A DNA stretch of 36,940 nucleotides from a virus, in the IMG/VR virus record IMGVR_UViG_3300030688_000069, positions 1 through 36,940 of that record; one strand, 5' to 3'. A program made the translations under genes and the position numbers. Below the pieces are notes generated by a model, which saw nothing but the letters and a program-made list of their open reading frames with translations, was not told the DNA's origin and searched no databases. Shown piece after piece: positions 3,073-35,468 of this stretch. Positions within the stretch are counted from its first letter, which is position 1; each line of letters starts with the position of its first letter.

Positions 3073-4820
3073 TAACGCACTCCGGGCATGGGCATCGCTA
3101 AGCCACCGTCTAGCCCACCACCAGATCTTGGGATGTTGGCCCAGCGCCCCTGATGAACCGAAACAGCTTGAGCCACCTTCTTGCCATCGATATTGACTGC
3201 CGTATGGAGGTGCACAGTTCCTGCGAGCGATTTAGGCACGAACGTGGTCTTCTTTGCGCCGCCTCCGAAGAAGTTTTCTACGCTACCCCACAGATTGCTG
3301 AAGAAATTGATAATCCAGGATCCAAACGCGACGAATCCGCTCTTAATCTGCGGCCAGATGGTGCTCCAGTTTTGATAGAGATATCTGACGCCCAGCGTGA
3401 GCGCGGTGACCGCGCCCAGGAATAGCGCAAACGGCAGGCTGATGCCGCCGATCAATAGACCAAGAAGCGCAAAGCCGCTACATGCGGCCGCAATCATGGT
3501 GATCAGACCGCCGGTGATGAGCACCCCGGACAAAATCAGGAAACCCTCGGCGATTTTTTTGACTGCGTCTGGGTTCGCTGACATCCACGAAATCATGGTT
3601 TGCATTTTGGCATTCAGCTTTGTCAGTGCCACCGTCGCCAACGGCAGGAGCGTGTACCCCAGCTCGGTCATGGCCGATACAAAGTTGGTCTTCGCGTTCA
3701 TGTACTTCTGTTCGGCAGATTGGTTGGCGAACATCGACTGGATTGAATCCACGCCTCCATAGCCACTAAATGTCTGGCCAAGCATTTTGAGTTGAGATAT
3801 CGCTTGCGGGCTAGACAGCAGAGAGGCAACACGAGAACCCTGCACGCCAAAGGCGTACTGAAAATTCTTCATTATGTCCTGGCGCGCTATGGCCTCAGGA
3901 TGACTTGCGAACTCCCTTGAGACGTAATCACTCAAATGCCCCATCCACTTGAAGGTGTCAAACTTTCCGTCCGTGAAAATGGTCGAATGACCCTGTGGGT
4001 CGGTGAAACCCATGCGCTTCAGGGCTTCGCCACTCTTGCCAGCCAGCAACCCAGACCCAAATACCCCAGGGATAGTGCGAGACATGGCGGCAATCAGGTT
4101 CGTGCCGCCGCGGCTGCCGGCGAATCCCAAGCGATTAAGCAATGCGGTCATCAATACCATCTGCTCATCACCGATGCCCAGCGCGGTCTTGCCCATGCCC
4201 TGCGAGTATTTCAGCGCGTTACCAACTTCGTTTAGGCCGCCAGGCACGACGAACGATGCTTTGGTCAGAAGATCCAGATATTTACCAAGCGAAGCGGGGT
4301 CGTAGTGCTGCGCCGTGTGTGCCAGACGGATGGCATCGGTCACTGACTGGTTGTAATCCGTCCCCTTCATCAGGTACTGCACGTCGGCGAACTTCGCGTA
4401 TTCTGGGAGCAGCTTTGTCACGTCCGGCGCAGCAAGCCCGGTACCGGTGGCGACCAACTTACCCATCTTGGCAACGTCGATATTGCTGAAAACGGTCTGA
4501 GACGCGACACCTTCAATCGCATGGCGCATGTCAACCATCTGACTGGTTGTGCCGCGCGCCGCGACCTGGATGCCAAGCATCTGCTTTTGCAGCTCGGCTG
4601 CGCGGTCGATGGCGAAGATAAAAGGGGCTGCGATCGCCGCACCAGCGCCGACAAGAGCGCCACCAACGGCCATCTGCTTGCCAATCTTGGTAAGTCTCCC
4701 TTGGAACTCTTCCGCGCTAACGTTCGCGCCCTGCAAGCCTTTGCTGATTAACAACAATCCATAGGTCACGCCGTTGATCAGCGATAACTTGATGGCGACA
4801 GAGTAGGCCTCAAATGCCAT
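3072..4820 (-). CDS. Tail tape measure protein
   Basis: This 582-residue protein would set tail length and be ejected at infection. It has an N-terminal coiled region, a glycine-rich hydrophobic stretch at about residues 52-72 (VGGALVGAGAAIAAPFIFAI), a TP901-type central region (SQMVDMRHAIEGVASQT, KYSQGMGKTALGIGDEQM), and a long membrane-like block at about 420-480. At roughly 1.5 angstroms per residue it predicts a short tail of about 85-90 nm. It follows the chaperone and gp10-like genes but is separated from them by a 268-base gap that carries an opposite-strand gene. Confidence 0.88.
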   Translation of the reverse strand: MAFEAYSVAIKLSLINGVTYGLLLISKGLQGANVSAEEFQGRLTKIGKQMAVGGALVGAGAAIAAPFIFAIDRAAELQKQMLGIQVAARGTTSQMVDMRHAIEGVASQTVFSNIDVAKMGKLVATGTGLAAPDVTKLLPEYAKFADVQYLMKGTDYNQSVTDAIRLAHTAQHYDPASLGKYLDLLTKASFVVPGGLNEVGNALKYSQGMGKTALGIGDEQMVLMTALLNRLGFAGSRGGTNLIAAMSRTIPGVFGSGLLAGKSGEALKRMGFTDPQGHSTIFTDGKFDTFKWMGHLSDYVSREFASHPEAIARQDIMKNFQYAFGVQGSRVASLLSSPQAISQLKMLGQTFSGYGGVDSIQSMFANQSAEQKYMNAKTNFVSAMTELGYTLLPLATVALTKLNAKMQTMISWMSANPDAVKKIAEGFLILSGVLITGGLITMIAAACSGFALLGLLIGGISLPFALFLGAVTALTLGVRYLYQNWSTIWPQIKSGFVAFGSWIINFFSNLWGSVENFFGGGAKKTTFVPKSLAGTVHLHTAVNIDGKKVAQAVSVHQGRWANIPRSGGGLDGGLAMPMPGVR

Positions 4821-19827: not shown

Positions 19828-19836
19828 GGAAATTTG

Positions 19837-19910
19837 TGCTGCGGGTTGGCCTCGAACCAACGACATCCAGCTTACAAGGCTGGCGTTCTCCCCGTCTGAA
19901 CTACCGCAGC
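19837..19910 (-). tRNA. tRNA-Thr(UGU)
   Basis: A 74-base cloverleaf is clear on the minus strand: acceptor GCTGCGG/CCGCAGC, D-arm GTTC/GAAC, anticodon stem CCAGC/GCTGG with loop CTTGTAA (anticodon TGT), T-arm GTTGG/CCAAC with the conserved TTCGAGG loop, and discriminator A. The 3' CCA is not encoded, so the host must add it. It sits downstream of the Q-like gene and late-promoter candidate, so it is probably expressed late. ACA may be a codon the phage needs more than its host supplies; a codon count would be required. Confidence 0.92.
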
Positions 19911-26438: not shown

Positions 26439-26462
26439 GACGGTTTCTCTTTTCATTTCATG

Positions 26463-26491
26463 ATGATAACTACAGTTTGCATTAAATGCAA
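26463..26491 (-). promoter_or_regulatory. Leftward early promoter (PR equivalent)
   Basis: On the minus strand TTGCAT (26486-26491), 17 bases, TATCAT (26463-26468). The palindrome TGCATT-A-AATGCA (26478-26490) overlaps the -35 and spacer. The expected start is 5-7 bases past the -10, about 20 bases before the cro start used here. Confidence 0.7.
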
Positions 26492-26525
26492 TCCTAGGTT
26501 CACAAAATATCCGCTAACCTTGGTT
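26491..26525. promoter_or_regulatory. Repressor operator pair AACCNNGGTT
   Basis: AACCTTGGTT lies at 26516-26525 just before the CI-like start. ATCCTAGGTT (one mismatch) lies at 26491-26500, touching the -35 of the leftward promoter. The same 10-mer recurs at the large-RNA promoter (29681-29690). Confidence 0.55.
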
Positions 26526-26528
26526 GAC

Positions 26529-26912
26529 ATGAACACTCTCGGACAACGTATTCAGAAGGCGCTAGATGACCTGACTGAATCAACAGGTAAAAGGCACACG
26601 CCGAATTGGCTGGCAGTGCAAATTAAACTATCAAGAACCGCGGTTTATAAATGGATGAACAATCCAACTGCTGGCATTGATGGTGATAATTTGGTACGTG
26701 CATCTGCGGCGCTAAAGGTGAGGTCAGATTGGCTTGCGCTAAACAAAGGGCCTATGCGGGAAGATAAGTCCGATACATTTCCGTCCATAAACATTGAGGC
26801 ATCGTCTCCCGAGGAACTTGCCACGAAGCTTTCAGCTTATGACGCGCAGCGAATGCTAGAAATCGTGCAAATGGCGATGAAGTTGAAAGATCAAGACAAG
26901 CTGGACGATTGA
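26529..26912 (+). CDS. CI-like repressor without protease domain
   Basis: This 127-residue protein has a helix-turn-helix (TPNWLAVQIKLSRTAVYKWMNNP, then DNLVRASAALKVRSDWLALNKGPM). After it comes only a short acidic helix (PEELATKLSAYDAQRMLEIV). There is no LexA-type autocleavage domain, so induction must use another route, such as an antirepressor. The start at 26529 is preceded by an operator and no clear ribosome site, so translation may be leaderless. Divergent from cro: the classic immunity switch. Confidence 0.78.
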   Translation: MNTLGQRIQKALDDLTESTGKRHTPNWLAVQIKLSRTAVYKWMNNPTAGIDGDNLVRASAALKVRSDWLALNKGPMREDKSDTFPSINIEASSPEELATKLSAYDAQRMLEIVQMAMKLKDQDKLDD

Positions 26913-26968
26913 GGAAATTTGAGAAGCTCGCAATTGCGGGCTTATGTCGTTAATTTGGGAGAATAAAA

Positions 26969-27742
26969 TTGGGAAGCCTACCGGCTGGCGTGCCGCAGAA
27001 GAAAGTGCAGATTGTTGATACGACGATACCGGTCATCGAGTATCGGGGGCAGCGGGTTATTACCCTGGCTATTATGGACGTCATCCACCACCGACCTGAC
27101 GGAACGGCCAAAAGGGCATTCCAAACATACAAAGACAGGCTAGAAGAAGGAAAACACTTCTATCTTGTTGATTATACTCAAAAGAACGAATTTCGTTCTT
27201 TTGAAATTGACGTACCTCCTCGCGGCCTGACTGTCCTTACTGAGCGCGGATATTCAATGCTGGTCAAATCCTTCACGGATGACTTTGCATGGGAAGTTCA
27301 AGAGCAACTGTCAGATAGCTATTTCGACAACCAGAAGCCGATGAGCACGGCAGAATTTCTGGTGCAGCAGGCCAACCTGATACTCGAGCATGAAAACCAA
27401 ATCAAGGCGCTACGCGAACATCAGCACCGGACGGACCAGCACCTAGTAGAAACAAATCAAAAAATTCGTGCCCTCAGCGAAAAGGCTGACGAAGCTTTCG
27501 AGGCGGCATCAGCTGCGCTTCAGCACAAATTCGGACGTTCTGACTATTTCACTGTGATGGCCTTCTCTTCGACTCTTGGCGTTAGCCTTGACCTGACAAT
27601 GGCCAAAACATATGGCGCCAGGGCATCGCAGCTATCCCGCCAGCAAGACATGCAAATCATGAAGGTTCCTGATGAACGGTTCGGTAAAGTTAATTCGTAT
27701 CACTCAAGCATCCTAAAGCAAGTGTTTGATGACCTAACGTGA
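26969..27742 (+). CDS. ORF6N-domain antirepressor-like protein
   Basis: This 257-residue protein starts at TTG (GGGAG seven bases upstream). The N-terminal ORF6N domain is visible: IPVIEYRGQRVITLAIMDVIHH, KRAFQTYKDRLEEGKHFYLVD and LTVLTERGYSMLVKSFTDDFAWEVQEQL. A coiled stretch follows (ENQIKALREHQHRTDQHLVETNQKIRAL), then a C-terminal domain (DYFTVMAFSSTLGVSLDLTMAKTYGARASQL) resembling DNA-binding regions of Roi/Ant-type proteins. Its place downstream of the short CI-like gene suggests control of immunity. Confidence 0.75.
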   Translation: MGSLPAGVPQKKVQIVDTTIPVIEYRGQRVITLAIMDVIHHRPDGTAKRAFQTYKDRLEEGKHFYLVDYTQKNEFRSFEIDVPPRGLTVLTERGYSMLVKSFTDDFAWEVQEQLSDSYFDNQKPMSTAEFLVQQANLILEHENQIKALREHQHRTDQHLVETNQKIRALSEKADEAFEAASAALQHKFGRSDYFTVMAFSSTLGVSLDLTMAKTYGARASQLSRQQDMQIMKVPDERFGKVNSYHSSILKQVFDDLT

Positions 27743-27822
27743 CTATCCGCGTCATCGCCATCCTTGTGTTTTAGATTGCGCCGCTAGGCGCCTACCACTA
27801 GCCAGCGCCAGCGGGCTTTGTA

Positions 27823-27869
27823 TTGTCAACCATGCCTTATTGCTCTATATTGCCTACATATGTAGGCAA
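27823..27869 (+). promoter_or_regulatory. Toxin-antitoxin promoter with a perfect 20-bp palindrome
   Basis: TTGTCA (27823-27828), 17 bases, TATATT (27846-27851), overlapped by TTGCCTACATATGTAGGCAA (27850-27869). The palindrome covers the -10 end and start, the usual site for autorepression by antitoxin. Confidence 0.78.
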
Positions 27870-27883
27870 ACAAGGAGAACGCA

Positions 27884-28114
27884 ATGAGTGTCGCAGTGCG
27901 GATTGACGCAAATCTCTATGAGCAAGCCAGGGCTGAGGCGACGGCTGAACACCGCTCAATTGCTGGGCAGATTGAATTCTGGGCCACGATTGGCCGGGTC
28001 GCATTAGACAATCCAGATCTACCCGTATCGTTTATTGCTGAGTCTATGGCCTCAATGGCTGAGCCAAGGGATCAAGCACAGCCATTTGAGCCAAGAAGCC
28101 GTAAAGCCTCATGA
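27884..28114 (+). CDS. ParD-like antitoxin
   Basis: This 76-residue protein has the ParD-like ribbon-helix-helix start: SVAVRIDANLYEQARAEATAEHRSIAGQIEFWATIGR. The strong site AAGGAGAAC lies upstream of the ATG. The C-terminal tail (EPRDQAQPFEPRSRKAS) probably covers the toxin. It overlaps the toxin gene by ATGA. The palindrome in its promoter suggests self-repression. Confidence 0.85.
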   Translation: MSVAVRIDANLYEQARAEATAEHRSIAGQIEFWATIGRVALDNPDLPVSFIAESMASMAEPRDQAQPFEPRSRKAS

Positions 28115-28389
28115 AGTACGAAGCGAGACAGACCAAGCGGTTTGGGCGCCAATATAAAAAGCTGCAGGACAACATCGCGGCTGACGTAGACGGCGCTGTA
28201 GAGGCTGTTTGCACAGACCCGGATATTGGCGAACGAAAAAAAGGGGATCTAGCCTCCCTGTGGGTCTACAAATTTCGCAGTCAAGGCCAACTCTGGCTGT
28301 TGGGTTATACGCGCGACGACTCCATTCGATTGGTTTACCTGGAGGCCGTTGGGTCTCATGAGAATTTCTACCGAGACATAAAGCGGTAG
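28111..28389 (+). CDS. RelE/YafQ-type toxin
   Basis: This 92-residue protein (MKYEARQTKRFGRQYKKLQD, then LWVYKFRSQGQLWLLGYTRDDSIRLVYLEAVGSHENFYRDIKR) has the RelE fold pattern: helix, strands, and a C-terminal HENFY element. It is probably a ribosome-dependent mRNA interferase. It overlaps the antitoxin. In a prophage the pair could stabilise the lysogen or block other phages; no target is shown here. Confidence 0.85.
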   Translation: MKYEARQTKRFGRQYKKLQDNIAADVDGAVEAVCTDPDIGERKKGDLASLWVYKFRSQGQLWLLGYTRDDSIRLVYLEAVGSHENFYRDIKR

Positions 28390-28408
28390 CCTGCACAGAA
28401 TACCTTTA

Positions 28409-28428
28409 GCCCGCAATCGCGGGCTTTA
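28409..28428 (+). terminator. Terminator after the toxin gene
   Basis: GCCCGC-AATC-GCGGGC followed by TTTATT. It ends the toxin-antitoxin transcript. Confidence 0.7.
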
Positions 28429-28533
28429 TTGCATCGAATGTCGGTGACAATCAATCTGTATCCAGAACAATAATTCCTGATTTCATGCCAATAAATCCCG
28501 CTTTCAGAACGAGGCGTACCACATTATGTGCGG

Positions 28534-28872
28534 ATGAATTCGCTCGGTATCCGCATTAAAGAAGAACGCATGCGTCGTGGTTGGACTCTAGAGGAGTTGG
28601 CCAGGCGTGCTAATGTCAGCAAAACCCTCATCTCTGAACTTGAGAACGATCCCAATCGTGGTACAACAAAACTCTTGCAACTTGCGAGAGCGTTCAAGAT
28701 GAATCCAGTGTACCTAGAGACGGGCAAAGGCCCGCGCGATAACCTGGTTGATCCGGCTGGCGCCTACATTTCTGCCGAGTCAATTGAAGACCTTGCCGAC
28801 AAGTTGGTAGCGCGTGGCGACGAAGAGGTTATAAAGCTCTGGCGCGCCATTCTCGCCGCCAAAACAAAATAA
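28534..28872 (+). CDS. XRE-family regulator
   Basis: This 112-residue protein has a clear helix-turn-helix: IRIKEERMRRGWTLEELARRANVSKTLISELENDP, then TTKLLQLARAFKMNPVYLETGKGPR. The C-terminal helix (SAESIEDLADKLVARGDEEV) resembles that of the CI-like protein, with the same acidic EDLA/EELA pattern. Starting at ATG 28534 (a GTG at 28528 is in frame); no clear ribosome site. Possibly a second immunity factor. Confidence 0.72.
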   Translation: MNSLGIRIKEERMRRGWTLEELARRANVSKTLISELENDPNRGTTKLLQLARAFKMNPVYLETGKGPRDNLVDPAGAYISAESIEDLADKLVARGDEEVIKLWRAILAAKTK

Positions 28873-28920
28873 TAGTCAACTGTCCTATCTTACAGTTGTA
28901 AGTCATTACGCATGGCTTGC

Positions 28921-28940
28921 GTATCAAGTAAACTTGATAC
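28921..28940. promoter_or_regulatory. Perfect operator palindrome GTATCAAGT-AA-ACTTGATAC
   Basis: Nine-base arms, perfect. It lies between two XRE genes. A half-site ACTTGATAC recurs at 29301-29309 within the promoter after the second gene. Nearby, CAACTGT/ACAGTTG (28877-28898) is another inverted repeat. Confidence 0.68.
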
Positions 28941-28991
28941 CAAACACTAGAGTTTCTTGCTGTTCGCCTAGGTGGTATCTACCATCCCCTA

Positions 28992-29306
28992 ATGGATACT
29001 TTTCAGGCACGGCTGCGCCATTTAAAACAGCGCGATCGCATTATAGCGAAAGAAATTGCAAGAGCCTGTGGGGTATCCGTTCAGGCCGTTTTTGGATGGC
29101 TTAGTGGTACATCAATGCCAAAACCGCAAAATGTTGTAGCACTTGCAAAAATGTTCGGCGTGTCAAGCGATCACCTTATTAATGGTGATGCAGATAGCGT
29201 ACGCGCCGAATCTCTAGATCTAATCCGCGCCGCCCTCCCTACCCTATCTAACGACAAACTTGAGTTGCTCGCTAAGGTTGCGGTCGAATTCTCTAAAAGC
29301 ACTTGA
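28992..29306 (+). CDS. XRE-family regulator, third in the region
   Basis: This 104-residue protein has helix-turn-helix AKEIARACGVSVQAVFGWLSGTSMPKPQNVVALAKMFGVSSDHLINGD, typical of XRE repressors, and a helical end (LPTLSNDKLELLAKVAVEFSK). It is likely the binder of the palindrome just upstream or of the half-site at its 3' end. No clear ribosome site, but the start is close to palindromic sequences (GGTGGTATCTACC). Confidence 0.72.
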   Translation: MDTFQARLRHLKQRDRIIAKEIARACGVSVQAVFGWLSGTSMPKPQNVVALAKMFGVSSDHLINGDADSVRAESLDLIRAALPTLSNDKLELLAKVAVEFSKST

Positions 29307-29331
29307 TACACTAAGTACAACTACTTATTCC
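29303..29331 (+). promoter_or_regulatory. Promoter candidate with half-operator
   Basis: TTGATA (29303-29308), 17 bases, TATTCC (29326-29331). The -35 is part of ACTTGATAC, the half-site of the palindrome at 28921. It would read the small gene at 29407. Confidence 0.45.
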
Positions 29332-29358
29332 GCCGCCTATTCTCAGGGGGTAGCCTTA

Positions 29359-29398
29359 TCTCTCACGCCGCACAATCAGACGGCCAATCTGTGAGAGA
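29359..29398 (+). promoter_or_regulatory. Leader hairpin covering the ribosome site of the 29407 gene
   Basis: TCTCTCAC (29359-29366) and GTGAGAGA (29391-29398) form a perfect 8-bp stem with a 24-base loop. The second arm contains the GAGAGA that would serve as ribosome site for ATG 29407. Confidence 0.42.
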
Positions 29399-29406
29399 CA
29401 ATAACA

Positions 29407-29565
29407 ATGAACACGAGCACACAATCAACGCAGCCGCACCCTCCCGCTTTTTTGGCAGAACTACACATCACATTAAGCCACGATAGAAAATTCAACATTG
29501 TGCAACAGGGCGACGTTGGCGCCATCCTCTCTCTCATTATTGCTCGCCTCGGCTTATCTAAATAG
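29407..29565 (+). CDS. Small hypothetical protein
   Basis: This 52-residue protein (MNTSTQSTQPHPPAFLAELH, then DVGAILSLIIARLGLSK) is not recognised. Its only ribosome site candidate (GAGAGACA) is in a hairpin arm. Low complexity start; a helix at the end. It is the last open frame before the noncoding region. Confidence 0.45.
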   Translation: MNTSTQSTQPHPPAFLAELHITLSHDRKFNIVQQGDVGAILSLIIARLGLSK

Positions 29566-29667
29566 AAACACTCAATAACGGGCCACTTCCTCGGCCCGTC
29601 AGTCCCCTGCCCTAATTTCCACTACTGTGATTTGAACACCCAGGTTTCCATTCAATGCAAACTTAAG

Positions 29668-29696
29668 TTGACACCATGCGAACCAAGGTTTACATT
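29668..29696 (+). promoter_or_regulatory. Near-consensus promoter of the large RNA with repressor site
   Basis: TTGACA (29668-29673), 17 bases, TACATT (29691-29696). The spacer contains AACCAAGGTT (29681-29690), which is the reverse complement of the operator by the CI-like start. CACCCAGGTT at 29637-29646 is a one-mismatch copy. AACTTAAGTT (29660-29669) overlaps the -35. Confidence 0.75.
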
Positions 29697-29703
29697 TACC
29701 ACA

Positions 29704-30707
29704 TCAGCTCAGCAACGCCGAGCACCGATCTTTGAAAACCTACAGGGATAGCAAGCCGATATCGCCGCAAGGCGTCCTAGGCCCGGCCCCAGAATTAGCC
29801 CCGCGCCGGTAAAGCGGGAGCAAGTCGAGTGAAAGCAATCACTCGTGACCAGTAGACGAAGCGACGCAGGCTAAGAATGAAACTGGAAAACGCCGACCGA
29901 CAGCGGCGAGTTGACTGAAGACATAGCCCATTCGCAAGAGTGGGCACATTGGAGCGCTCAGTATCGGTTTGGTGGGTGGAGCGCACCCGTATGCCAAGCC
30001 CGTTCCAATGTGATGCAGCGCGGACGCCACTACGAGGGCCGCGAGTTTAACCGGGAGACGATCATGTAACCGCGCCTTGCTGTGACATTTTCAACTGCGG
30101 CTTCGCTGGGGAGCGAGTCCGTTTTCCAAAGGCGCTTCGACGAGGTGGTTTTGGTGATTTTACCGGGGAGCGGCGCCCTGAGCACAACAGCTGATTTGTG
30201 GCGCGACCGGTCGCCGTAAGCGGCCACCCGGTAAGCACATTCCGACGAGTGCGTTTACCGGGTCTGGATGACTTCCGCATTCAAGACGGACCCATTAAAT
30301 GTCCACGAATGCGCTGATTCGCTTCGGCAGTTCCGGAGTGCGGGCTTTGCGACTGAGCCAAATCATAGAGTGTGAGGTGGCGACCGCACAGCGCCTGACG
30401 GCCGGGAAAGACCGGCGCCAACACGCATGGCGACTGAGCATCGGAAGTCTGTGCCAGGCAACCACTGATGCGGCACCATCCGCCAGCCGTGTTGGTAAAC
30501 GCACCAACTAAGACTGACAACACGGCATGAGTCGCGACGACATGCGGGCCACAACACAAAGGCCAAGCGTCCATGAACGGCAACAGGGCATGCGCAGGGC
30601 GCCAATGACAAGCTACTGGTCTGACTTTGCTGGGGGGAAAGAAACCAGCACCAACAAACGTGTTCTCCTTGTGTTTTCTTTGCCCGCCTCGTGCGGGCTT
30701 ATTTTTT
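29704..30707 (+). ncRNA. Large structured RNA of about 1 kb (novel candidate)
   Basis: This stretch has no convincing gene but has a strong promoter before it and an intrinsic terminator at its end. It is full of strong pairings. CGCC-GCAA-GGCG lies at 29763-29774 and CGAGTGA/TCACTCG at 29826-29845. GCCCATTC-GCAA-GAGTGGGC (29926-29945) has a GNRA loop. A three-tier nested stem follows: CACATTGGA/TCCAATGTG, GGTTTGG/CCAAGCC and GGGTG/CACCC, 29945-30012. GCGACCGGTCGC is at 30203-30214, ACCCGGTAA/TTACCGGGT with inner GCAC/GTGC at 30226-30263, GCCGG/CCGGC at 30401-30416, and CCGTGTTG/CAACACGG at 30487-30525. Size, phage location and ornate folding recall the GOLLD and ROOL classes, but homology cannot be shown by eye. 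A giant 5' leader of the recombination operon is an alternative. Confidence 0.65.
30682..30707 (+). terminator. Intrinsic terminator at the end of the large RNA
   Basis: GCCCGC-CTCGT-GCGGGC, then TTATTTTTT. It lies just before the ribosome site AGGAG of the 30720 gene, so it would either end the RNA or, when bypassed, allow the recombination operon to be read. Confidence 0.8.
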
Positions 30708-30719
30708 AGGAGCGTGACA

Positions 30720-31193
30720 ATGCAAATAGCAACCCTGGAATGTGGCGACGTGAAGTTGTCCGCCCCGCTACACCGGATTGAAAAACTAATCGCCAGCTTG
30801 TTCGCCGAGCCGGCGGTCACCGAGGTTCGGACGGTAATCGGCGTGCTGCTGCACGAGGGCGAGGATTATGCGGGCCTGGTGTTTGATGCCGAGACTGGCG
30901 AGCCGTCGCACCACTTGATTCTCCTACCCGGCGAGTTTAAAGGCGGATGGCAGCAGGCACTGGACTGGGCAGCATCGATCGGTGGGGAGCTGCCGACGCG
31001 TCAGGAGCAGTCATTCCTGTTCGCCCAGCTCAAGCGCCTGTTCTCCGGCGACTGGCACTGGTCTTGCGCGCAGTGCTCGAGCGGCGTCGCCTGGGCGCAG
31101 TACTTCCGCGGCGGCACCCAGCACGGCGTCTTCAAGGTCACCAGCAGTCGTGCTCGAGCCGTCCGCAGAGTCGCCTATTCATCTATTCAGTAA
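30720..31193 (+). CDS. DUF1566-like phage protein
   Basis: This 157-residue protein starts at ATG 30720 with AGGAG nine bases upstream. The second half (WAASIGGELPTRQEQSFLFAQLKRLF, then HWSCAQCSSGVAWAQYFRGG and SRARAVRRVAYS) matches the DUF1566-type module common in phage recombination regions. The N-terminal half (MQIATLECGDVKLSAPLHRI) is related to the start of the protein at 36709. Function unknown. Confidence 0.68.
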   Translation: MQIATLECGDVKLSAPLHRIEKLIASLFAEPAVTEVRTVIGVLLHEGEDYAGLVFDAETGEPSHHLILLPGEFKGGWQQALDWAASIGGELPTRQEQSFLFAQLKRLFSGDWHWSCAQCSSGVAWAQYFRGGTQHGVFKVTSSRARAVRRVAYSSIQ

Positions 31194-31196
31194 TTT

Positions 31197-31222
31197 AACC
31201 CGGCATCGCCGGGTTTGCTTTT
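31197..31222 (+). terminator. Intrinsic terminator-like hairpin
   Basis: AACCCGGC-ATC-GCCGGGTT, then TGCTTTT. Perfect 8-bp stem between the first and second genes of the rightward operon. Confidence 0.68.
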
Positions 31223-31232
31223 GGTGTCCACC

Positions 31233-31382
31233 ATGAAAGCCAAATACGACCGCAAGACCAAAACCGTAGTAATCGTCCGCCAGAACGGCGACTTCGAATA
31301 TTCGCAGCGGTGCAGCAGCGTGACCGAGGCGAAAAAAATCGCCGCCAAGTATGGGGCTGCATTTGCGGAGGGATCTGCATGA
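31233..31382 (+). CDS. 49-residue basic protein
   Basis: MKAKYDRKTKTVVIVRQNGD, then SSVTEAKKIAAKYGAAFAEG: a beta hairpin and a helix. The ATG has a weak GGTGTCC upstream, and the end overlaps the next start (ATGA). Unrecognised. Confidence 0.58.
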   Translation: MKAKYDRKTKTVVIVRQNGDFEYSQRCSSVTEAKKIAAKYGAAFAEGSA

Positions 31383-31552
31383 AAAACATCGAATACATCA
31401 TCGGTCACATGACCGAAGAAATGAAAGCGGATCTGATCCGCCGCGGCTGCGTTCAGATCAAGTTCCTGTTCTGGTCCCGTCGCGGGACGCCAGTACACAT
31501 GGGGGTGATGCAATGCTACGTCGCGGGGAAATCCTTGGAATTGGCGGCCTAG
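31379..31552 (+). CDS. 57-residue hypothetical protein
   Basis: MKNIEYIIGHMTEEMKADLI, then RGCVQIKFLFWSRRGTPVHM. Starts with an ATGA overlap and GGAGGG upstream. Its end overlaps the next small gene by 40 bases in another frame. Unrecognised. Confidence 0.58.
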   Translation: MKNIEYIIGHMTEEMKADLIRRGCVQIKFLFWSRRGTPVHMGVMQCYVAGKSLELAA

Positions 31553-31608
31553 TGTTCGCGCTGGCCGTGATTTATACCGTTTCGGCTGTGTGCGGAAGGC
31601 TTTTTTAA
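31513..31608 (+). CDS. 31-residue membrane peptide 1
   Basis: MLRRGEILGIGGLVFALAVI, then YTVSAVCGRLF: one membrane helix after a basic start. GGGGGTG lies before the ATG. Overlaps the next start as TAATG. Paired with a second membrane peptide of the same length. Confidence 0.52.
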   Translation: MLRRGEILGIGGLVFALAVIYTVSAVCGRLF

Positions 31609-31703
31609 TGGACTCGGCACAGCGGAAGTTTTGGAACTTTGCGGCGGTCGGCGTGGTGGTTTTGGCCGTGCTGTTTACCGCATGCGTGATGCACTGGAGT
31701 TGA
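31608..31703 (+). CDS. 31-residue membrane peptide 2
   Basis: MDSAQRKFWNFAAVGVVVLA, then VLFTACVMHWS: one membrane helix. VLFTAC resembles a lipobox, although the position is late for a signal peptide. Depends on coupling (TAATG), with no ribosome site of its own. Confidence 0.5.
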   Translation: MDSAQRKFWNFAAVGVVVLAVLFTACVMHWS

Positions 31704-31705
31704 TT

Positions 31706-32098
31706 ATGGGAAAAATGGCTGAGTACAGCGCCGAGCAGCACTCGTTAAACGATGGCCCGTCAGATTGCGACGGGCCTTATTCGTTGCCGGGCGAGACTCC
31801 GACTAATGTGTCGAGCATGATGGCGGCGCAATTCAAGCGCCAGGTGAAAGCGATGTTGCCGCGGTGGTGCCGGGTTTCCGTAGAGGTGGCAGACAGCGGG
31901 GTACATACGCTCGTCGTTGATTTTGGCGACAGCAAGTACAACTCCACTATTGCCGACTACGGGGACGCCGGGCTTGATCGAGTGAAGAAGGGTTGCGCGG
32001 TGGGCGTCGCCATGGGCGAAGACAGTCGGCGCCTAGCGGAAAACAAAGTTGCTCAGCGCGCGGTTGGATCCGGCGTCTACAGCAGCAGGTTCGATTAA
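31706..32098 (+). CDS. Hypothetical protein of the recombination operon
   Basis: This 130-residue protein starts at 31706 with GGAG upstream. Sequence: an N-terminal polar part (AEQHSLNDGPSDCDGPYSLP), then MMAAQFKRQVKAMLPRWCRVSVEVADSGVHTLVVDFGD, a helix-strand domain. Unrecognised. Its stop overlaps the next start (TAATG). Confidence 0.58.
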   Translation: MGKMAEYSAEQHSLNDGPSDCDGPYSLPGETPTNVSSMMAAQFKRQVKAMLPRWCRVSVEVADSGVHTLVVDFGDSKYNSTIADYGDAGLDRVKKGCAVGVAMGEDSRRLAENKVAQRAVGSGVYSSRFD

Positions 32099-32292
32099 TG
32101 CGCGCCTTTATTGATGTTTCACCAGTAGCGAGCCGGCGACGCGCTGACGAGGTGGCGCATTTCCGCGCGATTAAGCTTGGCGGGAACATGAACCGCACTA
32201 TCACGGACGCGGATCGCAGTCTCACACTGCGCCGCAACGACCGATTTGAACGCGAGATGGCCCGGGCTCTGTCTGGCGCCGATTTCGCATAA
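32098..32292 (+). CDS. 64-residue basic protein
   Basis: MRAFIDVSPVASRRRADEVA, then RTITDADRSLTLRRNDRFER: arginine-rich and helical. It is coupled to the previous stop. An internal ATG at 32188 with GGCGGGA upstream would give a 34-residue version. Unrecognised. Confidence 0.5.
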   Translation: MRAFIDVSPVASRRRADEVAHFRAIKLGGNMNRTITDADRSLTLRRNDRFEREMARALSGADFA

Positions 32293-32305
32293 TGAGGGCA
32301 TGATC

Positions 32306-32929
32306 ATGAAGGTCTACCAGGCCATTGCCGCGGTGGCGGCAGAAATGGCACAACAAGGCATCAGTAAAGACGGGCGGAATGCGGCGCAGGGATTTAGTTT
32401 CCGGGGCATAGACTCAGTGTACAACGCGCTGGCACCGATTCTCGCAAAGCACTTGCTATGCATCCTCCCTCGTTGCATCGAAAGAACAGTGGTCGAGCGC
32501 ACGAACGCGAAAGGAACGGCGCTATTCTATGTGACCGTGCACGCCGAATTTGACCTGGTCAGCGCGGAGGACGGCAGTAAGCACACCGTCGCCATGTACG
32601 GCGAGGCGATGGACAGCGGCGACAAGGCCACCAGCAAGGCGATGAGTGCTGCCTACAAATATGCAGCATTCCAGACCTTCTGCATTCCGACTGAGGAAAC
32701 GGCAGTGGATGCGGACAGCGAATCACACGAAGTACGAACGCGCAAATCGTCGGCGCAAGTCGCTCTTGAGGCAGATCTGGACGCGGTGGGTGCAGACAAA
32801 GCCAAATTCCTTACGTTGGCCACTAGCGTCGGCTGGAACCTCCCGACCCTCGACGGCATGGCAGATGCCCCTGACTGGTATGCATGGGCATCCGAACAAA
32901 TCAGCATCAAAAGGAAGAAGGTAGCTTAG
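32306..32929 (+). CDS. erf: ERF-family single-strand annealing protein
   Basis: This 207-residue protein anneals complementary single strands in phage recombination. The family core is clear: AAQGFSFRGIDSVYNALAPILAKH, then ALFYVTVHAEFDLVSAEDGSKHTVAMYGEAMDSGDKATSKAMSAAYKYAAFQTFCIPTEE. The start at 32306 has GAGGG at a proper distance; an ATG at 32300 is too close. It is followed without a gap by SSB, its usual partner. The C-terminus (NLPTLDGMADAPDWYAWASEQ) may contact SSB or another protein. Confidence 0.92.
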   Translation: MKVYQAIAAVAAEMAQQGISKDGRNAAQGFSFRGIDSVYNALAPILAKHLLCILPRCIERTVVERTNAKGTALFYVTVHAEFDLVSAEDGSKHTVAMYGEAMDSGDKATSKAMSAAYKYAAFQTFCIPTEETAVDADSESHEVRTRKSSAQVALEADLDAVGADKAKFLTLATSVGWNLPTLDGMADAPDWYAWASEQISIKRKKVA

Positions 32930-33427
32930 ATGGCATCCGTCAATAAAGTGATTCTGGTTGGCAATCTCGGCAAAGACCCTGAAATGCGCTACATGCCTAG
33001 CGGAGAGGCCATTGCCACCCTGTCGATCGCTACCACCGATTCCTGGATGGACAAGGCCTCGGGCCAACGTCAGGAAAGCACCGAATGGCACCGCGTGGTG
33101 CTCTTCGGTAAAACCGCCGAAGTGGCCTCGCAGTACCTGAAAAAGGGTTCGCAAGTCTACATCGAGGGTTCGATCAAGACGCGCAAATGGCAGGATAAAG
33201 AAACCGGCCAAGACCGTTTCAGCACCGAAATCCGCGGCGACCGCATGCAAATGCTCGGCGGCAAGGGTGGGAGCGATAGCCAGGACGACCGTGCGCCAGC
33301 CAGTAGCGCACCGCCGTCTTCGCCCCGGCGCAAGGCGCCCGCGCCGCAGGTGATGAATGACATTGACGATGACATTCCGTTCGCACGAATTGGGCTTGAA
33401 AACCGCACAATCATTCACTGCATTTAA
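32930..33427 (+). CDS. ssb: Single-stranded DNA-binding protein
   Basis: This 165-residue protein has the full OB-fold: [21 protein letters not shown], then [35 protein letters not shown] disordered proline-rich linker follows. The acidic tip DIDDDIPF is present, but is followed by 14 more residues ([14 protein letters not shown]), so it is not the very C-terminus as in bacterial SSB. That may change partner binding. It starts directly after the ERF stop, with GAAGG upstream. Confidence 0.94.
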
Positions 33428-33439
33428 CCGGGACTCATC

Positions 33440-34117
33440 ATGGCACAAATCGCACGTATCTTTGACGTTGAAACCACCGGCCACATCGACAAGAAAACCG
33501 GTGCCCTACCAGATGTGATCGAGTCCGCGTGGTTGGAATTGGACGCGCCGCCGGTCTGTGGCGTTATCGATCAGTTCGAGCAGCGCTATAAGCCAACCAA
33601 GCCGATCAACCTGGGCGCGCTGGCCACACATCACATCCACCCTGATGACCTAGTTGATTGCCCGGCGCACACGAATTTCGCGCTGCCGGCGACCGACTAT
33701 CTGATCGGCCACAACGTCGATGGTTTCGACTGGATCGTCATTGGCAAACCGCCAGTCAAGTTGATCGACACACTCGCTCTGGCGCGCATGGTATGGCCGG
33801 CACTCGACAGTCACACGCAAAGCGCCCTGCTGTATCACCTCAAGGGAAAGGCGGCGCGCGAACAGCTGCGCAATGCGCACAGCGCCCTGGCTGATATCTG
33901 GATCTGCCGCGAAATCCTGCTGGCGCTGATGAACGACCTCAAGGCGACGAGCTGGCAGGAGCTGCACGAACTGTCCGAACGCGCGCTGATTCCGACTGTG
34001 ATGCCATTCGGTAAGCATCAAGGGGTGCCGCTTGCGCAAGTGCCGTCCGATTACAGGCGCTGGCTGCTCAACCAACCCGACATTGACCCACGGCTCCGCG
34101 CCGCGCTCACCAAATAA
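33440..34117 (+). CDS. DnaQ-like 3'-5' exonuclease with C-terminal DUF3820-like domain
   Basis: This 225-residue protein has all three exonuclease motifs: FDVETTG (8-14; Asp9 and Glu11), IGHNVDGFDW (89-98; Asp97), and HSALAD (147-152). So it should be an active DEDDh enzyme. The end (VMPFGKHQGVPLAQVPSDYRRWLLN) matches the DUF3820 module. It is expected to trim DNA ends for ERF annealing or proofread. Its place in the operon fits recombination. Confidence 0.85.
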   Translation: MAQIARIFDVETTGHIDKKTGALPDVIESAWLELDAPPVCGVIDQFEQRYKPTKPINLGALATHHIHPDDLVDCPAHTNFALPATDYLIGHNVDGFDWIVIGKPPVKLIDTLALARMVWPALDSHTQSALLYHLKGKAAREQLRNAHSALADIWICREILLALMNDLKATSWQELHELSERALIPTVMPFGKHQGVPLAQVPSDYRRWLLNQPDIDPRLRAALTK

Positions 34118-34119
34118 CC

Positions 34120-34142
34120 AACCCTGCTCCGGCAGGGTTTTT
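34120..34142 (+). terminator. Intrinsic terminator after the exonuclease gene
   Basis: AACCCTGC-TCCG-GCAGGGTT followed by TTT: 8-bp perfect stem. It is inside the operon. Confidence 0.72.
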
Positions 34143-34155
34143 CATGGAGATCACC

Positions 34156-35244
34156 ATGGAACAACCCGAACAAACCGACCTCGCCATCGTCGAGCCGTCC
34201 GAGATCGCCAAGCGCGAATTGCTCACCATCGACCCGCTGACCTACGTCACCGCCGTCTACGCCCAGCACCACACCGATCTGGCCGCAGCTATCGCAGCCA
34301 TCCCGGTTACGATCGACATGCAGACGACGGCGGGTTACAAGCGGGCCACGACCTGTCGAGCGACATTCCGTGGCATTCGTACCAGTGGGGATGCCACTCG
34401 CAAACTGCGCAAGGCTCCAATCCTTGAAATCGGCAAGATGCTGGAATCGCATTACAAGGCGCTGGAAGCTGAAGTCACCCCGTACGAAACCCAGTTTGAC
34501 ACCCTAATCAAAGACGAAGATGCGCGCAAAGAGGCCATCAAAGCCGAAAAAGCGCGCGTTGAGGCTGAGCGAGTCGACGCCATCCGCTTCCGGATCGACG
34601 CCTTTGGTCTCGTGGCGCTGGACTGCGCTGGCAAGTCGTCCGAGCACATTCAAGGCGCGATCGACACCGTCACGGCAGTCGAGATCGACGCCAGCTTTCA
34701 GGAGTTTTCCACCGCGGCCATTTCTGCCAAGCAATCTGCGCTCGAAAAATTGGATCTGGCGCTGGACGGCGCCAAGGAGACCGAAGCCGAGCAGGCACGG
34801 GCCAAAGCGGAGCGCGAGGAATTTGAGCGCCAGCGCAAGCAACAACAGGAGGATGCCGCCGCGCTCGCCGCTGAGCGCAAGAAGCTGGATGCTGAGCGTG
34901 CCGAGCAAGAGCGCGCAGCACAGGCCCAGGCTGACGCCCTTACCGCTCAGCGGGCAGAACTAAAGCACCAGCAGGATGCACTGGCGGCGCAGCAAGAAGC
35001 TGCGAGGATTGCGGCCTTGCCGAAGCCCGAACCGACCATCATCGAATTGGCGCCCGCGCCGAGCCCAAGCCAATCAAGCGCACCACCACGACTCACCTCG
35101 GTGGCGCAGGCGCCTCGCCAGCCGTTGCAGGACACCGCCGAGATAATCCTGGCCGAGTTTGTGAACGCCTACGAGGATGGCAGCGAAATCCACATGCAAA
35201 ACGTCTACAAGCGCGCCAAGGCACTCGCTGCCCAGGCCGCGTAA
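34156..35244 (+). CDS. Coiled-coil phage protein of the recombination operon
   Basis: This 362-residue protein starts at 34156 with GGAG eight bases upstream. After residues 1-100 (ATTCRATFRGIRTSGDATRKLRKAPILEIGKMLES) it has a long charged coiled coil at about 100-290 (EDARKEAIKAEKARVEAERVD, then AERKKLDAERAEQERAAQAQ). A proline-rich linker follows, and a last helix (QPLQDTAEIILAEFVNAYED). It is of the DUF1351/SbcC-like coil type often near ERF/RecT genes, but I do not recognise the exact family. Confidence 0.62.
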   Translation: MEQPEQTDLAIVEPSEIAKRELLTIDPLTYVTAVYAQHHTDLAAAIAAIPVTIDMQTTAGYKRATTCRATFRGIRTSGDATRKLRKAPILEIGKMLESHYKALEAEVTPYETQFDTLIKDEDARKEAIKAEKARVEAERVDAIRFRIDAFGLVALDCAGKSSEHIQGAIDTVTAVEIDASFQEFSTAAISAKQSALEKLDLALDGAKETEAEQARAKAEREEFERQRKQQQEDAAALAAERKKLDAERAEQERAAQAQADALTAQRAELKHQQDALAAQQEAARIAALPKPEPTIIELAPAPSPSQSSAPPRLTSVAQAPRQPLQDTAEIILAEFVNAYEDGSEIHMQNVYKRAKALAAQAA

Positions 35245-35258
35245 CCAAGGATCAGACC

Positions 35259-35468
35259 ATGAAAACCAAAACCCAAACCATCGACCCACGCACTCTGCGC
35301 CGCCAACTCGGGCTGTCCCAATCCGACTTTTGGGATCAGCTCGGTGTCACGCAATCAGGTGGCTCGCGCTATGAAAGTGGCCGCGCCATGCCGAAGCCGG
35401 TGCGCAAGCTTCTCGGCGCCATCTACCTGGGCGAAACCGTTAATCCTTACCATCGCGAGGCCGCGTGA
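35259..35468 (+). CDS. Small helix-turn-helix protein
   Basis: This 69-residue protein: DPRTLRRQLGLSQSDFWDQLGVTQSGGSRYESGRAMPKPVRKLL. The XRE-type helix-turn-helix is clear. Site AAGGATC lies before the ATG. It sits between the coiled-coil gene and RdgC, and could regulate this operon. Confidence 0.72.
   Translation: MKTKTQTIDPRTLRRQLGLSQSDFWDQLGVTQSGGSRYESGRAMPKPVRKLLGAIYLGETVNPYHREAA

Follow-up and report, generated by a model that had tools for sequence, protein, structure and literature searches.

A covarying pseudoknot RNA family outside Rfam in a temperate phage and in unrelated phages and prophages

Results

The stretch of viral DNA analysed here (the window, 36,940 bases) belongs to a temperate phage with a contractile tail, as judged from PHROGs assignments: its minus strand encodes tail sheath, portal, terminase, and O-like and DnaC-like replication proteins, and its plus strand CI-like repressors, Erf, SSB and exonucleases. 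A noncoding region at positions 29668–30711 separates repressor-type genes, the last of which ends at 29306, from the recombination genes, whose first frame begins at about 30720; in lambda-like phages, this repressor/recombination junction is the place of the pL leader. The elements follow one another as promoter, RNA, terminator, and then the Erf, SSB and exonuclease genes. The IMG/VR contig L013 matched positions 28637–35334 with 100% identity. The neighbouring immunity region (26460–29306) is unusually crowded: an antirepressor and three separate regulator genes of the CI/HTH type are found there, and a RelE-like toxin gene (28111–28389) sits among them. A lone tRNA-Thr (TGT; 19836–19910, minus strand) lies in the structural and replication arm, far from the RNA, and one tRNA elsewhere in the window was the only match when the window was scanned with Rfam 15 at gathering thresholds.

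The initial annotation had described the noncoding region as structured rather than featureless, bounded by a near-consensus promoter and a clean terminator and filled with strong helices, and this description was borne out. The sigma-70-like promoter (TTGACA-17-TACATT, 29668–29696, plus strand) matches the consensus at 10 of 12 positions, and coliphage mEp390 carries TTGACA...TACATT at the equivalent spot after its repressor gene. The intrinsic terminator (30682–30707, plus strand) consists of a stem at 30682–30698 followed by a TTATTTTTTA tail. The helices were found both in the sequence and in the minimum free energy (MFE) fold, including two hairpins with GCAA loops (29763–29774 and 29926–29945), the nested stem (29945–29953/30004–30012) and the stem previously placed at 30226–30263 (30227–30234/30255–30262), while a further hairpin at 29826–29845 has an AAGCAA hexaloop and no GNRA tetraloop. 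Folded over 1,000 nt, the region reached −399 kcal/mol against −369 ± 9 kcal/mol in dinucleotide shuffles (z = −3.2), none of the 20 shuffles being as stable, and z fell below −2 in 39% of plus-strand 150-nt windows compared with 7% in controls and 6% on the minus strand.

The two halves of the region differ in conservation. The 5′ half (29700–30203, plus strand), which holds the two GCAA hairpins, the hexaloop hairpin and the nested stem (29945–30012), is stable by fold statistics, with z from −1.7 to −3.6 over 29701–29901, and BLAST of positions 29700–30200 against the loci of relatives gave short, weak matches only and no homologue. The conserved portion spans 30204–30495, about 290 nt, and the remainder is lineage-specific, so that conservation supports only this portion of the discrete RNA of about 1,000 bases that the initial annotation proposed. 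It begins with a hairpin, GGTCGC-CGTAA-GCGGCC (30209–30225, plus strand), and hairpins with CCGTAAG or CCGTTAG loops also occur in L001, L008, L011, L020 and L021. Next, abutting the core, comes the 5′ helix CCCGGTAA-GCAC ... GTGC-GT-TTACCGGG (30227–30262, plus strand; sequence and MFE fold), whose final three G overlap helix P1 of the core; the two helices compete for these 3 nt, and a switch between them may thus be possible in the window. Beyond the conserved portion, a second GGGGAAAGAA hairpin (stem 30629–30633/30645–30649) lies in a plus-strand segment, 30591–30653, that is common to L055 (81% over 64 nt, E = 6e-8).

The core itself is an H-type pseudoknot at 30260–30313 that occurs in 82 non-redundant phage and prophage loci. 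P1 pairs GGGTCTG (30260–30266) with CGGACCC (30287–30293), and P2, which crosses it, pairs CGCATTC (30276–30282) with GAATGCG (30307–30313), both on the plus strand and both supported by covariation; AAGA alone separates the 5′ strand of P2 from the 3′ strand of P1. Collecting homologous phage regions and testing them for covariation was among the checks proposed by the initial annotation. In the 82-sequence alignment A1, ranking all column pairs by an APC-corrected G-test, in which phylogeny was handled by sequence weighting and APC only, placed pairs that nearly all belong to P1 or P2 at the top. P1 was paired in 98.7% of cells over 81 distinct sequences, and its column pair 10-42 was never unpaired (A-U 42, G-C 20, U-A 18, C-G 2). 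Over the whole structure, 93% of cells were paired compared with 73% in shuffles, cells with both sides changed numbered 222 against 67 ± 7.5 in shuffles, and the covariation score of 0.507 dropped to at most 0.118 when the partner was slid by 1–3 columns. The loop at 30267–30275 forms covarying base triples with P2: columns 20-33-62 go from U20.A62-U33 to C20.G62-C33 in concert, the behaviour expected of a major-groove triple, and a further tertiary signal comes from columns 18-61, which change from A/G to G/C. The sequence 5′ of P1 is unconserved, and the core is nearly invariant.

Downstream, helices P3–P6 (to 30416) are common to the window and 11 relatives, and P7 extends the structure to 30495. 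P3 (30320–30326/30335–30342) and P4 (30343–30347/30355–30359, GGCTT/GAGCC), which together cover 30320–30359, covary across these 12 sequences; P5 (30370–30399) and the recurrent hairpin P6 (GCCGG-GAAAGA-CCGGC, 30401–30416), whose stem also covaries, follow on the same plus strand, and the 3′ domain as a whole holds 17 compensatory pairs. P6 was present in 26 of 79 loci at +35 to +260 from the core, compared with 0.8% of control windows (about 40-fold enrichment). P7 is a long-range plus-strand helix (30418–30495) formed by CCAACACG (30418–30425) and CGTGTTGG (30488–30495); it encloses a variable domain and shows compensatory changes in the L068 group. Strong helices begin after P6 in 33% of tested loci, compared with 2.5% of control positions. 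In some relatives the domain enclosed by P7 is a tRNA or folds like one: in L061, L085, L095 and L101 the helix leads directly into the acceptor stem of such a tRNA-like domain, which RF00005 scored at 47–49 bits in L101 and L085; in L067 the domain corresponding to the tRNA-like tip is degenerate. Both the T arm and the acceptor stem are good in the domains of L101 (5622–5740), L085 (6625–6742) and L067, but the anticodon arm is odd and there is a long insertion; on these sequence features, the domains are possible tRNA mimics. After the core of mEp390 (L142), the leader contains an internal terminator-like hairpin and then a second long stem, CACAAC...TTGTG, as if the P7 module were repeated.

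Relatives were widespread among phages. Distant blastn searches against named phages recovered a core of 50–105 nt, both in Burkholderia phage Mica and in Stenotrophomonas and Xanthomonas Schitoviridae, where it sits in gaps adjoining tRNA genes. Pattern scans of IMG/VR and GTDB yielded 113 loci, 82 of them non-redundant, spanning IMG/VR contigs, Mica and the Stenotrophomonas and Xanthomonas Schitoviridae, with one copy per locus according to the covariance model; coliphage mEp390 and E. coli prophages carry it too. Because the core motifs also served to search for members, the constancy of CTGGATG, AAGACGG and AAATGTC results in part from this selection; the relaxed patterns left most P1 and P2 pairs free, and core residues vary in mEp390, L139 and L141, altered-core members that the covariance model also finds. 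Three pattern hits, L015–L017, were rejected, as their TAAATGTCC half is absent, and L015 and L016 reached only 15 bits with the model. Among bacterial genomes, two queries matched five different genomes out of 5,426 E. coli; in a Burkholderiaceae-type family sample 2 of 343 genomes matched, one being the source genome, and in a class sample of 369 the source genome alone did. Rarity in the sampled Burkholderiaceae-type genomes is as expected of a phage-borne element. The plasmids searched gave no match.

The genomic setting of the family varies. A tRNA gene lies within 1.5 kb in 28 of the 82 loci, compared with 7.8% of control positions, and all 76 nearby tRNAs are on the same strand as the RNA, none on the opposite one; most of this linkage stems from one third of the loci, and the RNA in the window has no tRNA nearby. 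In L040, L078, L098, L125 and L132, P1 begins 0–7 nt after a tRNA, which replaces the 5′ helix. A tyrosine integrase gene, identified from the Mica annotation, is upstream in seven loci, a CI-type repressor ends at most 1.3 kb upstream in 15 of 82, and in mEp390 and two E. coli prophages the RNA lies in the gap between the repressor and the early operon, in which no N-like gene is annotated. Most of the 82 loci share no recurrent partner protein, the best being CI repressors (22) and integrase (7). The next genes after the RNA are on the opposite strand in Mica and, by ORF calls, in L005, L098, L109, L112 and L131. Terminators occur within 600 nt in 14 of 78 loci compared with 9% of controls, a weak signal that does not make terminators a family-wide feature; in L005, the 3′ end of a terminator stem lies 57 nt beyond the AAGACGG of the core. 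Proteo-phage-1 RNA (RF03044) lies on the same strand and at most 700 nt from the pseudoknot in L008 (7600–7679), L012 (2298–2380) and L138 (840–919). It was found near the core in L008/L138 and L011/L012, phage contigs of Caballeronia and others, and on either side (5′ or 3′) of the pseudoknot, as if modules had been shuffled. A sub-threshold hammerhead type III match (30.6 bits; gathering threshold 48.5) precedes the core in L140 (670–728), a Herbaspirillum MAG.

Discussion

Sequence comparison across the loci shows that a structured non-coding RNA is encoded here, made up of a P1/P2 pseudoknot with base triples, helices P3–P6, and P7 with its variable, sometimes tRNA-like, domain. The alignments show selection on an RNA-level fold that is common to unrelated phages and belongs to no Rfam family. 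The initial annotation had offered two identities for it: membership in GOLLD or ROOL, or a new class. The first did not survive the covariance-model check that the annotation had itself suggested, as the region had no match at gathering and no credible Rfam match at E ≤ 10, including GOLLD, ROOL and OLE, and we reject membership in any of these three; the GOLLD and ROOL models likewise gave no match in 15 relatives, nor in 16 loci at E ≤ 1. The second is supported by a covarying pseudoknot family that lies outside Rfam 15, in unrelated phages and adjoining tRNAs. The motif is not described in the literature searched, which mostly left out subscription journals, and absence from it and from Rfam is not proof of novelty.

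Our preferred reading, in which we place about equal belief and doubt, is that these loci define a new family of phage RNAs, large and structured, that act in their own right, as unrelated analogues of GOLLD and ROOL. Such an RNA would be transcribed early, here from the promoter at 29668 in the pL-leader position and elsewhere together with tRNA genes or the integrase. Its 5′ side may be freed by tRNA-type processing or may stay attached to the 5′ helix, and the transcript would be ended by the terminator and released as a discrete RNA. It could then act in trans during infection by binding, as a folded scaffold or as a decoy, a partner in the translation or tRNA machinery that comes from the host or the phage. 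In favour of this reading count the covariation of the core, the strand-specific fold beyond chance, the conserved 3′ domain with P6 and P7, the tRNA linkage, the single copy per locus and the lack of an Rfam match; nor is the RNA a leader in every case, as the opposite-strand genes of Mica and the terminator of L005 indicate. Counted against it are a position downstream of a repressor in 15 of 82 loci, as would suit a cis role, the origin of most tRNA linkage in a third of the loci, the bias that the search patterns lend to the apparent invariance of the core, and the lack of a homologue of the 5′ half in the relatives of the window. More tentatively, the loci may represent a large, modular and so far undescribed viral RNA class of Proteobacterial phages, in which a triplex pseudoknot behind a tRNA or helix, with a tRNA-like arm, would target the host translation or tRNA machinery.

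The main rival, which we consider somewhat unlikely, is a cis-acting antitermination or leader RNA by analogy with the put sites of phage HK022. HK022 put suppresses termination in cis, and put in HK022, like N and nut in lambda, lies downstream of the repressor. By this account, the nascent pseudoknot and helices would bind RNA polymerase and carry it past the terminator at 30682–30707 and on into the recombination operon, and at other loci they would keep untranslated tRNA arrays transcribed. The order of promoter, RNA, terminator and recombination genes in the window fits such a role, as do the CI-type repressors that end at most 1.3 kb before the RNA in 15 of the 82 loci and the equivalent place in mEp390 and the two E. 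coli prophages, where no N-like gene is annotated; this pL-leader position keeps alive the alternative, already raised by the initial annotation, of an untranslated leader of the recombination operon. HK022 putL, too, follows closely on PL, and its RNA includes a triplex, but put is only about 70 nt long, with two stem-loops (PMC9378689) and no pseudoknot, and the RNA described here is far larger than needed. Moreover, given the opposite-strand genes in Mica, which by ORF calls recur in L005, L098, L109, L112 and L131, and the terminator directly after the L005 core, the RNA cannot in general serve to control downstream genes.

A self-cleaving ribozyme or processing signal that would cut 5′ of P1, freeing the 3′ end of an upstream tRNA or mRNA, is improbable. 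P1 starts 0–7 nt past a tRNA 3′ end in five loci, the contrast between the unconserved sequence 5′ of P1 and the nearly invariant core would suit such a site, and theta ribozymes in gut phages occupy this very position at the 3′ end of phage tRNAs (PMC10879173). However, the nested double pseudoknot of HDV-like ribozymes (P3, P1.1 and P4) is absent, AAGA alone lying between P2 and the 3′ strand of P1, and the conserved residues are others; this missing HDV topology makes a ribozyme at tRNA 3′ ends less likely than a put-like RNA. In addition, no ribozyme family matched at the core, and in most loci no tRNA adjoins the core.

A metabolite-binding aptamer related to SAM-II is very improbable. 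SAM-II is likewise an H-type pseudoknot in which U.A-U triples stack between loop 1 and P2, and its topology and its order of loop-1 × P2 triples (G8-C23-G42, U11-U21-A45 and U12-U20-A46; PMC3764141) are the same here. By the published triple numbering, however, the stretch that in SAM-II separates the top triple from the U.A-U triples appears to be lacking here, and with it the SAM pocket; no consistent downstream gene or recurrent adjoining gene family accompanies the RNA, and the Rfam SAM families gave no match, although their models hold no pseudoknot and a distant relative could escape them. SAM-II is retained as a fold analogy only.

Least credible of all are chance folding of GC-rich intergenic sequence and a small protein gene that went unrecognised: an AUG in the conserved AAAUGUC opens a 70-aa frame in the window (30299–30511), but that frame is unconserved across relatives, core-internal spacings differ among relatives by non-multiples of 3, which together contradict a small protein gene, and the core carries compensatory changes. 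Because of these spacing shifts, frame comparison across relatives found no conserved ORF in 29668–30711, in agreement with the initial annotation, which saw no credible gene. Hypothetical proteins annotated over the RNA core in L142 (mEp390; 1585–1827) and L004 (PB119; 3539–3628) are probably not genes.

To our knowledge, few large structured RNAs of phages have been described so far, and what they do is an open question. The present family, strongly covarying and outside Rfam, adds to them, and genome annotations at present leave such regions blank or fill them with spurious small proteins. Its named cultivable carriers include Burkholderia phage Mica, Stenotrophomonas phages Piffle, Paxi and Pokken, coliphage mEp390 and E. 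coli prophages, so action in trans, in cis on transcription or together with tRNAs can be tested in laboratory strains.

Proteo-phage-1 RNA, for which the window gave no match, is likewise a phage RNA but a motif separate from the pseudoknot. HK022 put shares with the window RNA an early-leader position after a PL-type promoter and a cis-encoded RNA with a triplex; the conserved fold here is a pseudoknot with further helices, not a two-stem-loop element of about 70 nt, and members of the family are further found in tRNA clusters and downstream of integrase genes. As for the giant phage RNAs, GOLLD forms a homo-oligomeric nanocage. GOLLD and ROOL are large, structured, non-coding RNAs of phages and prophages, often found near tRNA islands and sometimes with internal tRNAs (PMC12286853), and the family described here resembles them in being large, structured, non-coding, phage- or prophage-borne and near tRNAs (28 of 82 loci). 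Unlike them, it is built on a triplex pseudoknot with the GAAAGA hairpin P6 and a tRNA-like tip on P7, its named phage hosts are Proteobacteria and only about 290 nt are conserved; we take the likeness to GOLLD and ROOL as one of setting, not of ancestry.
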